A stretch of DNA of 64,000 nucleotides from Phascolomyces articulosus (Eukaryota > Mucoromycota > Mucoromycetes > Mucorales > Lichtheimiaceae), in contig JAIXMP010000011.1 of assembly GCA_025677815.1 (NCBI GenBank), positions 620,001-684,000 of the forward strand. The letters run 5' to 3'. A program made the translations under genes and the position numbers. How positions within the stretch are numbered: the first letter of the stretch is position 1; the number at the start of each line of letters is the position of its first letter. Below are positions 6,937-12,630 of this stretch, piece by piece. The notes under the pieces are model-generated. The model was not told the origin of the DNA. It saw only the letters and a list, made by a program, of their open reading frames with translations, and made no database searches.

Positions 6937-7410
6937 TATTTTTTCTTGGAAGAGTAAGAGTATCAAGAGCTCCGTCACCACTTGTAAAATAGTACAATAA
7001 AGGGATAAATTACGTTTTCTCACAAAATGTTCCAGTATTTACAATGATAGTTCGAGATAACTGTAAATTTATAGTAGTTACGTAGGTATAATATAGACAT
7101 TTTAAGTCATGATGTTTATTCCATGACAGTACAAGTTGTATCCTGGACAGAAAAAGATGAGAAGAAACAGAAGCACCACATTAACAGGAGCCTTCAATAG
7201 ATTCAACATTTATTTTACATACGTAACAATTTCAGATACAATTCACCATCCATTTTTTTATACATTAATCAACTCAATAAAAAGGTAGAAAAATATATTC
7301 ATTTGCGAGAAGAAGAAAGATTAAAAGGTTTATTGTTATTATTAGTTTGTTATAGTTCGTCATATAAATAGTAAGAGCATAACACCAAGCAATCTATGAA
7401 TTTTTTGTAA
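6937..7410. other. Intergenic, nothing recognised
   Basis: AT-rich DNA between the possible membrane-protein exon and the tandem array that starts at 7411. I see no exon or clear repeat in it. Confidence 0.5.
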
Positions 7411-8037
7411 TATGATTCAGAGGAAACATTTTGTTTCTATAATAGATAAAACGAATTCAAATTAGATAAACCATACAGCTATTACTACTGCTTTACGTTA
7501 TATTATGGAAAAATTAATCTTACCTTGATCATTTTCTTTTGATTGTTTGTATTTGAATATATTTGCATAAGACTCAGAGGGAAACATAGTTCCTATCCGT
7601 ATGAAGCGTAATACAAATTAGCTTATCATTTCATAGATACAACCATATAATACATCCATTAATTCAAAAACCTTGATCCTAGTTACCTTGTTCTTTTTTT
7701 TTTTGCAAGTTTTTGTTTTTGTATATGTATAATAAAAGACTCAGAGGGAAACAAAATTCCTATAGATATAAATGATATACAAGTTAGCATACTATTTCAT
7801 ACACCTATAATCCACCCGTTATTTCAGCAATTTTAAACTTATTTACCTTGTTCATTTTTTTTTGTATATAAAAGACTCAGAGGGAATCAAAGCTCCTATT
7901 CATATAAAATGATATACAAGTTAATATACTATTATTACATGCAATTATAATCCATCCGTTATTTCTGAAACATCCATATTATTTACCTTGTTCTTTTATA
8001 TTTTTGATTGTTTGTTTTTGTTTTTGTATAATAAAGT
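7411..8037 (-). repeat. Tandem array with exon/intron-like units
   Basis: Four to five diverged copies of a ~136-167 bp unit occur here. The conserved block, read on plus, is GACTCAGAGGGAAACA followed by TCCTAT. It recurs at about 7414 (as GATTCAGAGG), 7571, 7738 and 7874. A second block, TTACCTTG, recurs near 7521, 7683, 7843 and 7983. On the minus strand each unit reads as an acceptor (TATAG then GA), a 60-75 nt exon-like stretch coding-like around FPSES, a donor (CAAG then GTAA) and an ~85-95 nt AT-rich intron. One copy (about 7526-7594) is an open 69-nt symmetric exon; other copies have indels or stops. It looks like tandem duplication of an exon-intron pair followed by decay. Confidence 0.7.
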
Positions 8038-8604
8038 GGAATGTACCAATACATACATGGATCTACACAAATGAAACAGGTCGATCTGTATCTTTAAAAG
8101 TCGATGTTGATCCTCGTTACCCATAGTATTCGAATTTTTCGGGTCGATCTCTCTTCATCGGCTCCTAACCATACACACCGGCCCGAGTCATTTGTATAGA
8201 CACACATATATACTGTTCGTCCAAAATATTTTTTTGTTTTGTTTCATTCGCTCATAATCTAATATATAGTATATGTGAAATGATATTAGTAACTCTTGAT
8301 ATATATGTTGTAGTCCTGATAAATAAATATAACAAATTAAATGTAATATAAAAAACTTACTGGATCAAATGTTTTTTTTTTCACTTCATTGCTTGATGCT
8401 ATGCTCAAATTTGTTTTTGTATGTATGTGTATATTTTGCTTCCCTCTTTTTTTTTTTTTTGTTATACCAGTACTTTTTTTTTTCTTGTGTTGATTGATCC
8501 ACAGCCACCACGACCACGACCACCACAACCACAACCACAACCATTACTACTGTTTTCCTTTGTTTTCTTTCCTTTCTCCCACGAAAGAGGTTGTTTACTC
8601 GACT
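8038..8604. other. Spacer with simple repeats
   Basis: This lies between the tandem array and the inverted repeat. It contains poly-T runs (8368-8380, 8450-8482) and a CCA/CAA-rich stretch at about 8501-8545. On the minus strand that stretch would translate as a run of valines and is best explained as a simple repeat. No gene is called. Confidence 0.5.
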
Positions 8605-8980
8605 AGCCTGCTGGGCCAGACAGACAACTTTGGCTTCAGGAGAACAACTCTCCAGAAATAAAGGCAAGGGAAAAGCCTGGAAGCGGGCTCGACATGATCT
8701 GCCCCATACTACAGTCAAAGGAACCGGGACAGACAGAATATAGATTGCACACCTCCAGCCTTCGGATTCCAGCGTGAGGGGCACCAGTGATCCTTGTAGC
8801 ATAAGCAGCCGACGCAGGACAAGATGCAAAATGAAGTACACTCGTGGCCACTTCACAAGAATACGTTTTTTCTTTCTCCACCAAGTAATACATATGACCA
8901 GATGATAATAGGAATCAACGTCAAAGAACAAGAAACCAATTGGTATGTATATGAAATACCAAAAAGATATTGAACGAATT
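8605..8980 (-). repeat. Left arm of long inverted repeat
   Basis: Read on the minus strand, this arm aligns with 9227-9600 read on the plus strand over about 370 nt, with few indels. The arms share blocks such as ACGTATTC, CATATACATACCA, CTACAAG and CCTTTATT. The best part (8780-8896 against 9307-9424) has no transversions by hand count. The substitutions are almost all left-T/right-C or left-G/right-A. In a minus-strand RNA these leave G-U pairs rather than mismatches. Near its inner end the arm encodes part of a membrane-protein fragment on the minus strand. I interpret it as one side of a long RNA hairpin; see findings. Confidence 0.85.
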
Positions 8981-9098
8981 GACCGTATATCAAGGCAGGT
9001 CCATCGTCATATCTAAAATAACAATTCCATTTTCCCAGTTGGAAAAATGGAATTGTTATCACCATTAAGACAATAAAATATATAACAGTTAGCAATGT
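8853..9098 (-). pseudogene. Multi-pass membrane protein fragment
   Basis: A minus-strand frame of about 80 codons after a possible GTGAG acceptor is strongly hydrophobic. One helix is VIYFIVLMVITIPFF, a short polar loop contains NCYFRYDDG, and a longer hydrophobic run includes FVQYLFGISYTYQLVS and LIPIIIWSYVLL. It ends at a TGA inside the inverted repeat. The aligned right arm carries a corresponding but stop-interrupted peptide on plus (it retains YLF.ISYTYQ). The fragment resembles two helices of a receptor- or transporter-like protein, but I cannot name the family. No complete gene surrounds it, so it is a relic or an exon captured in the hairpin locus. Confidence 0.45.
9018..9059. repeat. 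Perfect 16-bp stem hairpin in the loop region
   Basis: ATAACAATTCCATTTT at 9018-9033 and its exact reverse complement at 9044-9059 are separated by 10 nt. It sits between the two arms of the long inverted repeat but off its centre (about 9102). It also lies within the membrane-protein fragment, so it could be a structural element or chance within coding-like DNA. Sixteen perfect base pairs with a short loop are unlikely by chance. Confidence 0.85.
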
Positions 9099-9226
9099 CA
9101 CTCACAAATGAAATAATTATCCATTCACCCATCTATTCTTTTCTATTACATTTTACTTGTCAAAAAAAAAGAACACAATAGACTTACCGAACATATATAA
9201 TCCACATCCACTTGTTTCCGTCGTCA

Positions 9227-9600
9227 AAATCCATCAATACCTTTTTGATATCTCATATACATACCAAAAGGCTCTCATTCCTTGACGCGACCCTATTACC
9301 ACCCAGCATATGCATTACCTAATGAAGAAAGAAAAAAACGTATTCCTGTGAAATGACCACAAATGCACCCCATTTCACACCCCATCCCACGCCAACTACT
9401 TACACTACAAGAACCACCGGCGCCACACCCCACGCCAGAACCCAAAAGCCAAAGATGTACAGCTTATATCCTGCCTGCCCCAAATCCCTTTGACCATAGC
9501 ATGGAACAAACCATGCCAAACCCAACTCCCAGACTCCTCCCTTACCTTTATTCCTGAAGAGCTGCTCCCCATCCACCATAGCTGCCTACTTGACCCAGGA
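9227..9600 (+). repeat. Right arm of long inverted repeat
   Basis: This is the partner of 8605-8980 in opposite orientation. The ~246-nt spacer between the arms holds a 16-bp hairpin. On the minus strand it also holds a consensus GTAAGT donor at about 9186, just inside the arm, with possible acceptors near 9102-9150; splicing there would shorten the loop. The plus-strand reading has stops relative to the left arm's membrane peptide, so this copy is not coding in that frame. An apparent minus-strand open stretch here is simply the antisense of the duplicated region. Confidence 0.85.
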
Positions 9601-9601
9601 T

Positions 9602-10075
9602 TGGTGGCTCTTCTAGCCACCCCTATAGATAAAATACAAATAATACGATCAGCACAATGTTTTATACAATGTATAATAAATAGGTTATAAATATATATAT
9701 AAAAAAAGAAACTTACCACATGGCCCGCAGGTCATGAACTGCGCCGTCATGAATGACGGCGGATCTGTGGCTCTTTTAGCCACACTATGAATAGAATATA
9801 AATGATTGAATCAGCATGATAGTTATGAAAAATAAATTCATGGTAGATATAAAAAAAAACTTACATTATGGCGCAAGGGCCATTACCTACGCCGTATAAA
9901 GAACGACGGAGCAAAACTCAAACAAAACTCGCCAAGTAACGAACCTATAGATAGATATTTACAAATGGATAAAGAGTTATTAATAACAATATCATGAAAG
10001 AATGTATCCAATTTATAAGTGTTAGTTAACATACTTCTATTGGCACAATGGCCATGTCTATAGGTCAAAATCTAA
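9602..10075 (-). repeat. Tandem repeats with GC-rich mini-hairpins
   Basis: About three diverged units of ~150-168 bp begin directly beside the right arm. Each has a GC-rich block carrying a perfect short palindrome, then an AT-rich stretch of ~90 nt, then ACTTAC or similar. The palindromes include GGTGGCT/AGCCACC (9603-9621), CGCCGTCAT/ATGACGGCG (9742-9761, 2-nt loop), TGTGGCT/AGCCACA (9766-9784) and ATGGC/GCCAT near 9867. On the minus strand the AT-rich parts look like introns (GTAAGT near 9717 and 9863; ATAG ends near 9627, 9790 and 9950), so the hairpin blocks would be exons. No long frame runs through them. Confidence 0.7.
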
Positions 10076-10555
10076 AAACTAACAAAAAAAAAACAAAACA
10101 AAACCAAAGACAAAAACAAAAACAAAAAAAAAAAAATCTACAAGAAATGATGAGTAAACTTGCTGGGAATAATAAATGAAAGCGAAAGAAATAATCGTTT
10201 GTCAATTGTTACTTACCTATAATGGGTATCTAACAAAACTGCGGGTATAAAAAGAGGTATAAGAAGAAGGGTATCAAAATAAATAAGAAAAATAAATAAG
10301 GAGGTTCCTATTATTATTATAAAGAGTATGTTAGTTTTCATGCATTGCAACTAAACGATGAATGAATGACCTAAAAGATAAAACTACTTACCAATAAAAT
10401 ATATAAAGAAAAAGTTTTGTTTTTTGTTTTTTTTTTTTTTTTTGTTAGTTTTTTGAATTTTGATATGTTTTTGGGTGTGGTGTTTTGGTTTTTTAAAGTT
10501 TTTTGGTTGTAATGAAAGGAAAAGAAAGAAAACCGAAACAGAAAAAGAAAAACCC
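10076..10555. other. Low-complexity A/T tracts with splice-like motifs
   Basis: There are long A-rich (10081-10138) and T-rich (10420-10443) tracts. On the minus strand, candidate donors GTAAGT occur near 10214 and 10392 and acceptor-like ATAG ends near 10300 and 10556. This suggests that the minus-strand transcript from the 10.9-kb start may be spliced through here. No domain can be recognised and the exon structure is unresolved. Confidence 0.35.
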
Positions 10556-10650
10556 TATTCATTAATAATAAAAAATGTCAATGAATAATTATCAAAGGTG
10601 TTCTTGAGACTTAATTTTGGAAATGAAAGAAGAAAAAAGAGTGCATACAG

Positions 10651-10894: not shown

Positions 10895-12630
10895 GGCGGC
10901 AACTTTTTTTTACACTTGTTGCCGTAGCAACCACATCGTAATCAAAGTACTTGCTATTTTTGATTTTGTTATAAACAAAATACATTAATGGGTACAAAAT
11001 GAACCAGAGAAAAAACTGTTTCATTTGGCTGTAACATAAAAGCAACAAAAGTTACAATGGCAATATATGTTGGTAGATGCAGATCAAGGGTTTCGAACGC
11101 TGAAATTATGGAAAAAAAAAAAATAACGTGATGCCGCAGTAAAAAAAAAAATATTGATTTAATTTATTACCCAGAGAACTGGAAATTTTCTCACTACAGA
11201 CATTTACACACATACACACACTAATATCCATACATAGACCATAAAAATAAATGTAGTTGCCTTATTATTGTATCCATACTTCTATAATAATTACCTTCTA
11301 TAGGTACAACTGTTTCCAAAACAACTGTTCCTGAATTCCTAGCTGCATGAAATCATTATCTTTTACGCTTTGTCTGTCAGCTTTGAACACCAGCTGTCGC
11401 CACAATGTTTCAGAGCTGCATTGTATGCGGTGTTTGTGGCATTAAGACTTTTTTTTCCAGGGGGCACTTTTTTTCTCAATTTTTTTTGGAAAACATCGTG
11501 ACAACCAACTAACCAGAATAAAAAAAAATATTTTGTTACAATTCAATAAAATAAATTAAGCCTTAATTATTTATTAGATACTTTATATATATATTTTTTT
11601 TGATAATCTCTAGCTAGATAGCAGATGATTGAGTTTTACCTGAAACGATGACCGTAATAATAATAAATACTTTTCTTGTATGAAAACCTTTTCCTTTTTG
11701 ATAGCAATACCTTATGATTTATAAAAAAATTACTTCTAATTCTTCCATACCTACATAGTGGAGAGAAACAAAAGAAGCTACTTTTGAATGCCTTTTTACC
11801 AGGATGTTTTTTACTTGAACAGTCAATAGCAATTTTACGTATTAGTTAATAATGAAAAAATATATTATTTCAGACACTTATATATAATCTGTTCCTCTCA
11901 AACTAAATAGTATTTCCAATAATATCTATGTAAAAGTGTAAAAATCAACCGTTTTTACTAATCTCAGGTGCCTTTGTTTGAATTTCAACTTTTTTAATAC
12001 GGACAGGTATTGTAATTACACTTTTATTTTTTTTTCAAATCTTACAACGCACACCTCATTCTCATTTACAGCACTTTGTAATTAATATAATTTCTTTGTT
12101 ATAGATGTATGCAAAATAATGATAATAATCTAACATACTTAAATGTATATATTAGAAAAATATACTATTTGCCTGGTCTGTAGCTTTCATTACTACTACA
12201 AAATTAAGCAGAATATAGTGAAAACAGAAACTTGATAATGAAGTATCATTGCGCCCAATTTTCATGCAGATCATCGATGATGTTACATTTGTCTATTATG
12301 AGTCTATCAGACGTAACAGGTGACATCCAAAACATTAAGACCATTGTACCACCGGGGAAATACTCCAAATATGGTATAAGCTTATCAACGCATAAAAAAA
12401 AATATTATTGCTCTGTACGTATATAATATAACTTTTGATTATAAATCCAATGTATTAATAATCACTACACAACAAAACAGTCTCTGTATTTTTTTATGTC
12501 TCACAGCTATTACTATCATTGTCATCATGAAATTAGTATAAATAATCGATAATAGTCAACCATATTTTTTTTTGCCAATTTTCTATACTCCTTTACAGTA
12601 ACAACAGTAACAAAAACGATAAAGACAAAA
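10895..12630. other. Intergenic between divergent transcripts
   Basis: AT-rich DNA lies between the minus-strand candidate exon and the plus-strand old yellow enzyme gene, which would be divergently transcribed. A 64-codon open frame at 12232-12426 has no domain and no splice support. I see no RNA gene. Confidence 0.5.

Follow-up and report, generated by a model that had tools for sequence, protein, structure and literature searches.

The locus at 8605-9600 of the window (the whole stretch of 64,000 nucleotides of DNA from Phascolomyces articulosus, Mucorales, Lichtheimiaceae, that was analysed) consists of two arms in opposite orientation, whose differences tend to leave G-U pairs in an RNA read from the minus strand. 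It raises the question of whether selection keeps a long hairpin RNA folded or whether both arms were altered by a strand-specific process (C-to-T or A-to-G changes of the minus strand). An earlier note on this DNA had proposed both possibilities, and its placing of the host in Mucoromycota is correct.

A gapped alignment of the arms (8605-8980 read on the minus strand, 9227-9600 on the plus strand) gave 366 columns, 264 of them identical and 102 different, with the aligned pairs spanning 8980/9227 to 8611/9598. Left-T/right-C (49) and left-G/right-A (40) differences made up 89 of the 102, and all of these keep a G-U pair in the minus-strand RNA. The remainder were three transitions of the opposite class (2 C/T, 1 A/G) and only ten transversions. 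The two classes of transitions are therefore strongly unbalanced (89 against 3, i.e. 89/92 wobble-keeping; binomial p ~5e-23). This confirms that the arms of about 370 nt described in the earlier note are real and shows that the wobble bias is stronger than was stated there. The hand count on which the note relied was exact: the 117 pairs between 8780-8896 and 9307-9424 contain 31 differences, 16 T/C and 15 G/A, and none of any other kind. The mismatches of the stem are mostly terminal, 11 of the 13 falling in the first and last of eight bins and two in between.

For the minus-strand RNA of 8605-9600, the folding energy is -611.7 kcal/mol, roughly double that of its 40 dinucleotide shuffles (-287.8 +/- 7.9); the plus-strand RNA reaches -292.6 kcal/mol (-178.6 +/- 7.4 in shuffles). 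In a scan of the window by 252 stretches of 1 kb (126 half-overlapping starts on both strands, with regression on composition), the minus strand of the hairpin was the strongest outlier (robust z -29.1), followed by its plus strand (-9.6). The third, 9601-10600 on the plus strand (z -3.5), also lies within the element, and no stretch outside the element fell below -3.0. Alignment, fold and scan agree on a long inverted repeat able to form an extended duplex from one transcript, as in hairpin RNA (hpRNA) loci. No match in the window was found in Rfam at the gathering cut-offs, and a tRNA search also found none.

The element belongs to a family. A search of the P. articulosus assembly (47.4 Mb, 110 contigs), in which all copy counts are lower bounds, detected at least 12 two-arm copies in three subfamilies: A (the window copy and L009-L014), B (L016 and L017) and C (L024-L026). 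In parts of the arms, subfamily C shares ~68-72% identity with A, and the hairpins of L016 and L017 are identical to each other. L015 is an incomplete hairpin with the left arm and part of the right one, L018-L020 and L022 have mainly the left arm left, and L021 has the right arm, for which a repeated arm search gave no second arm. In L023 and L027-L031, downstream parts are retained with little or no arm. Many copies lack one or both arms, so that any single copy is dispensable, which counts against the reading preferred below. The homology of L027, L029, L030 and L031 ends at or just short of the left-arm edge (8613, 8492, 8484 and 8471 in window coordinates, respectively), and that of L029 resumes at 11346, as though the hairpin and the upstream part had been deleted; hairpins may be prone to deletion. 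Further small matches of the downstream part (C67:1021230 and C1:1268791) lie outside the copy set analysed. Five family copies, one of them partial, are located on contig C18. The adenylosuccinate synthetase adjacent to the element has its best match (89%) in a Fennellomyces sequence among the 120 matches listed, in which entries are clusters at 90% identity.

The wobble bias was found in all 12 two-arm copies, with 23-90 pair-keeping transitions per copy against 0-5 opposite ones and 10-20 transversions. The keeping/opposite counts were 89/3 (window), 80/0 (L009), 90/2 (L010), 88/2 (L011), 88/1 (L012), 87/1 (L013) and 67/3 (L014) in subfamily A, 23/0 in both L016 and L017 in B, and 52/1 (L024), 47/2 (L025) and 47/5 (L026) in C. 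Because of shared ancestry, copies within one subfamily are not independent, and such arm-versus-arm figures are not meaningful for L015, L018-L020 and L022, in which arms are missing. When the window copy was compared with seven two-arm copies (a comparison that omits L015, L017, L019 and L021-L026), transitions exceeded transversions 3- to 17-fold in the arms, as against ratios of ~0.8-3.1 outside arms and loop and 1.3 to 12 in the loop. In the arms, comparisons inside the A clade left 0-1 window columns gapped and the comparison with L016 left 8; outside the arms, gaps were common. Similarly, the arm differences within subfamily C amounted to 17:2 and 20:6 transitions to transversions, versus 171:190 and 176:179 outside. 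Of its 35 variable pairs, 23 switch solely between Watson-Crick and G-U states and 12 include a broken state.

Across the aligned copies, 2792 of 2913 cells (95.8%) were paired in the minus-strand RNA, and sliding the partners by 1-3 columns reduced this proportion to 44-48%. Shuffling left 95.2% of the cells paired, a slight drop because most columns vary little. Two-sided changes occurred at 17 pairs; 300 shuffles gave 4.05 +/- 1.8 such pairs and never more than 9, and slid partners gave 3-7. Of the two-sided changes listed, 14 of 18 are in L016, where they may have been made by conversion, and four are in L014. When the same pairs were read as plus-strand RNA, only 74.8% of the cells were paired, but 28 pairs showed two-sided changes versus 17 on the minus strand. 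The number is higher because G-U intermediates are counted there as broken. The two-sided count is therefore not strand-specific evidence; the strand is indicated by the proportion of cells that pair and by the direction in which they change.

To separate the changes by direction, they were polarised on a tree of eight copies and counted on nine branches among the six close A copies, with L014 and L016 as outgroups. The topology, which has a trifurcation, was set by hand following two FastTree trees that differ in the order of the window copy, L010/L011 and L012/L013. L017 was left out of the trees and pair counts, and the single-arm copies and subfamily C out of the event counts. Expected numbers were derived from the rates in the 1,315 columns of the flanks that have no gap in any of the six A copies. 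Pair-keeping transitions (53 seen, 66.2 expected) occurred at a ratio of 0.80 (p 0.056). Pair-breaking transitions (9 versus 39.3 expected, ratio 0.23) and pair-breaking transversions (14 versus 63.5, ratio 0.22) were suppressed far more, which indicates that the constraint is mostly on RNA pairing. As the flanks belong to the same unit, any mild constraint on them would mean that the suppression of breaking changes is understated by these ratios and the freedom of pair-keeping ones overstated. The marked departure among the pair-keeping changes was C>T (13 versus 27.2 expected), and so some constraint on the sequence itself is possible. On the L014 branch, counted separately, the one-sided changes comprised 23 pair-keeping transitions, three breaking transitions and five breaking transversions. 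The two arms drift equally (left 40, right 38 changes).

The simplest reading of these data is that pairing is under selection and the letters are nearly free. The polarised counts, the pairing and the flank-rate ratios thus support the proposal that selection keeps a long minus-strand hairpin folded, and selection on duplex pairing across copies is a further property of hpRNA loci found here. Copies with a single arm weakly fit a lost constraint. L021 (right arm) differs from the window by 24 transversions in 358 columns, compared with 11/363 for the intact L016 (p 0.02), and L022 (left arm) by 15 in 342 columns, compared with 4/370 for the intact L014 (p 0.009). No difference was found for L020 (18/371 versus 11/358 for L016; p 0.26), nor any excess for L018 against L016 (3 transversions in 375 columns).

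The features of the element are listed in Table 1. The minus strand carries a chain of donor motifs (GTAAGT, GTAAAT) and AG acceptors that are largely conserved where the surrounding sequence has diverged. In the 11 two-arm copies aligned, the loop intron begins with GGTAAGT in nine (GGAAAGT in L012 and L013) and ends with AG in all. The homology of several distant copies ends near the AATAAA motif. A spliced, probably polyadenylated non-coding RNA is predicted from these motifs. Transcription of the hairpin strand as a single RNA would fit the largely conserved splice and polyadenylation-like signals on it; two annotated minus-strand models splice inside the arm. These models, which encode hypothetical proteins of 94 and 53 aa overlapping the left arm, leave the loop intron unused. 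One belongs to an L012-like copy, in which the donor is lost, and the other to L015; the annotated protein P0122 matches L015 on C18 exactly, in two pieces. These properties of the annotated models, the loss of the loop-intron donor in L012 and L013 and the lack of several other splice motifs in single copies count against the reading preferred below. The short upstream exon lacks its acceptor in L012 and L016 and the GT of its donor at 9716 in L014, L009 has GC at two donors, one repeat unit is without its AG in L010 and L011, and only the window copy has the exon-7 acceptor of the spliced models. The number of tandem downstream units varies among family members. By eye, the short predicted minus-strand exons in window 9601-9945 (9784-9717 and ~9945-9865) bear small stem-loops; in the upstream exons and at the start of the arm exon, such stem-loops are formed by GTGGCT...AGCCAC and GCCGTCAT..ATGACGGC.

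Table 1 Features of the hairpin element on the minus strand of the window (positions are those of the window; exon and intron borders were read by eye)
Feature	Position	Strand	Basis and conservation
Repeated transcription unit, approximate extent	7300..10540	-	Outer homology limits in distant copies
Polyadenylation-like signal AATAAA	7329..7334	-	In 7/8 aligned copies (absent in L014)
Tandem downstream exon-intron units	7526..7988	-	Period of ~140-160 nt, GGTAA-type donors, mostly ATAG acceptors
Predicted exon with 3' arm	8361..9012	-	Donor GTAAGT from 8360 (GC for GT in L009)
Hairpin 3' arm in minus-strand RNA	8605..8980	-	Paired 8611-8980; alignment, fold, pair counts
Predicted intron, most of the hairpin loop	9013..9187	-	GTAAGT...TTTTAG, 175 nt; splice motifs
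Small hairpin in loop intron beside the 3' splice site	9018..9059	-	Self-complementary matches (query 414-455), fold; found in family copies
Predicted exon with 5' arm	9188..9622	-	Acceptor ATAG, AG at 9623-9624 (ACAG in L016); 8 aligned copies
Hairpin 5' arm in minus-strand RNA	9227..9600	-	Paired 9227-9598; alignment, fold, pair counts
Predicted short upstream exon with small stem-loops	9717..9784	-	Donor and acceptor in most of 8 copies

Genes of the RNAi machinery are present in the genome: Piwi domains were found at four loci, Dicer_dimer at one and RdRP at no fewer than five. Some stretches matched to RdRP contain in-frame stops (C20:139-141k, C39:211-213k, C100:128-130k), which may reflect read-through introns or the decay of some copies in an RdRP family that has expanded. 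One RdRP-family gene (C18:480901-482900) lies ~7 kb from the hairpin copy L012 (C18:489659-490653). A single A_deamin (PF02137) locus, of the Tad1 (tRNA-type) or ADAR type, was found at C51:12686-13713.

We consider it probable that the family consists of spliced, apparently non-coding minus-strand hairpin RNA genes whose pairing is selected and whose duplex feeds Dicer and yields siRNAs, transcription and dicing being the parts deduced from sequence. The gene would be transcribed into a long hairpin RNA of ~366 pairs, whose loop would become short once the intron in it is spliced out. By the calculations above, selection acts on whether the arms pair and far less on which letters they carry: single transitions through G-U are tolerated at nearly the flank rate, and most pair-breaking changes are removed. 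As a substrate of the fungus's Dicer, the duplex would be a source of siRNAs, which is the most likely reason for its selection. With Argonaute, Dicer and RdRP encoded in the genome, dicing of the hairpin is the explanation that assumes least. The G-U drift, which lowers the identity of the arm DNA to 72%, should also, by analogy with plant transgenes for G:U hairpins, reduce arm-to-arm recombination and any self-silencing of the inverted repeat.

The equal drift of the two arms counts against this reading, as it is unlike a regulator with a fixed target; either the targets, which might be the family's own copies, co-evolve, or it is the duplex as such that matters. Searches for target genes at E<=10 returned family loci exclusively, both with the L016 hairpin including both arms (53 of 53 matches) and with the right-arm exon of the window (26 of 26); they score only the best candidates and skip very common words, and matches of 20-25 nt are outside their scope. 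That no non-family homologue appeared at E<=10 also counts against the preferred reading, and the suggestion of the earlier note that the locus was born by inverted duplication of a target gene is not supported. Homology to target genes, which characterises hpRNA loci, was thus not found at E<=10 in a search that does not extend to 20-25-nt targets, and we call the locus hpRNA-like and do not file it as a member of that class. Nor does it resemble a milRNA precursor, a short hairpin with one conserved small-RNA segment, as pairing and wobble extend along a stem of ~366 pairs.

The duplex might instead be selected for double-strandedness, whatever its sequence, and provide no targeting guides. 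It could then bind dsRNA-binding proteins, Dicer or RdRP as a platform or decoy, or be a retained structural RNA. We regard this as rather unlikely, although it accounts for a constraint that is mostly on pairing only, for the equal drift of the arms, for pairing along nearly the whole stem and for the outcome of the target searches. Long dsRNA is expected to be diced wherever Dicer meets it, and this genome encodes Argonaute, Dicer and RdRP. Moreover, targeting of the family by itself could equally let the sequence drift. A tentative suggestion, which we hold to be possible, is that of a natural G:U hairpin with nearly free letters that needs double-strandedness but no fixed sequence, acting as a dsRNA decoy, as a regulator of the RNAi machinery or as a self-targeting silencer that checks its own family.

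Gene conversion between the arms could maintain their likeness and produce the wobble bias as a by-product. The arms of L016 and L017 are identical over their central part, which suggests that arm-to-arm conversion probably happens. Conversion predicts identity, however, and not one-way G-U differences, and the arms of the seven A copies are only 71-77% identical yet ~96-97% paired. Since the bias is also found in copies without a conversion tract, conversion is very unlikely to be its cause.

The strand-specific mutational process, acting on both arms without selection, predicts the same arm-versus-arm signature, and the A_deamin-family locus could be cited in its favour. The polarised counts refute it, barring a serious error in the tree of the copies, and we give it next to no credence. 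On the minus strand, changes in the flank 7300-8600 are near-symmetric (G>A 35, C>T 36; A>G 37, T>C 37), as are those in 9605-10060 (G>A 11, C>T 10; A>G 13, T>C 25, with T sites outnumbering A sites). All four transitions occur in the arms, where G>A (23) and T>C (16) exceed C>T (13) and A>G (12). Of the G>A changes from paired states, 19 were on G-U pairs and four on G-C pairs (p 1.5e-4); of the T>C changes, nine were on U-G and five on U-A pairs (p 0.06), and two more were at positions already unpaired. Together, 28 of 37 were on G-U pairs versus 40% expected (p 1.5e-5). The suppression of pair-breaking changes in the arms also argues against such a process. Neither intron loss nor one-way A-to-G or C-to-T change, the marks of retrocopied or edited RNA, was found in the family; as the copies keep their introns, they were not copied back from an edited, spliced RNA.

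A protein-coding role of the arms, with the repeat arising by chance in a coding family, was rejected as scarcely believable. The two annotated hypothetical proteins overlap the left arm, and one frame is common to several A copies. The length of this frame, however, ranges from 182 aa (L009) through 142 (L011) and 138 (window) to 50 (L010) and 45 (L013), and the ORF lists of L012, L014 and L016, with at most three entries each, do not include it. No ORF is kept across the eight spliced models (with approximate exon borders), the annotated models differ from each other, and a protein search with the arm ORF at E<=1 found only two hypothetical proteins, both of P. articulosus, and no Pfam domain.

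Counterparts of the proposed hairpin RNA genes are found among engineered designs. In the intron-spliced hairpin RNA constructs of Smith from 2000, the loop is reportedly occupied by an intron; the Phascolomyces hairpin resembles them in the intron of its loop, here predicted from conserved sites. In plants, a hairpin transgene whose arms match perfectly undergoes self-silencing; converting C to T so that G-U pairs result avoids this and preserves RNAi (PMC9263138). The authors of that study suggested that the mismatches and G-U pairs of plant miRNA precursors may have evolved for the same reason. As in the G:U transgenes, the DNA arms of the Phascolomyces copies differ and G-U pairs keep the RNA duplex; the share of G-U pairs was 21.5% and 18.2% in two of the transgene designs of PMC9263138, compared with 89/366 (24%) here. 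Unlike our family, these transgenes were engineered with a designed target and, as presented there, with one-way C-to-T changes in one arm. The changes in Phascolomyces are natural, affect both arms in all four transition directions, and no target homologue was found at E<=10. The family thus looks like a natural, long version of G:U-modified, intron-spliced hairpin RNA designs.

Among natural systems, the hpRNA loci of Drosophila are likewise hairpin RNA loci in an RNAi-competent genome, where they give rise to endo-siRNAs (PMC10317233, PMC10292708). They silence identified meiotic-drive genes via siRNAs, whereas siRNAs and targets of the Phascolomyces family are putative. In fungi, hairpin small RNAs are known, and a re-assessment of mi/milRNA loci takes origin from one strand as the first criterion (PMC9757828). 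That paper of 2022 deals with miRNA-like loci, its main text does not include Mucor or Rhizopus, and it calls for exploration to show clearly whether long hairpin RNAs naturally work in this way. No such family appeared among the top-ranked literature matches on fungal or Mucorales hairpins and on long wobble hairpins, and the literature naming Phascolomyces concerns other subjects, as far as titles and the beginnings of abstracts tell.

The family provides a quantified case, from sequence only, of an early-diverging fungus in which a very long RNA duplex is under selection. It makes testable the idea that drift through G-U pairs may allow inverted-repeat genes to avoid recombination or silencing of themselves without losing their dsRNA.
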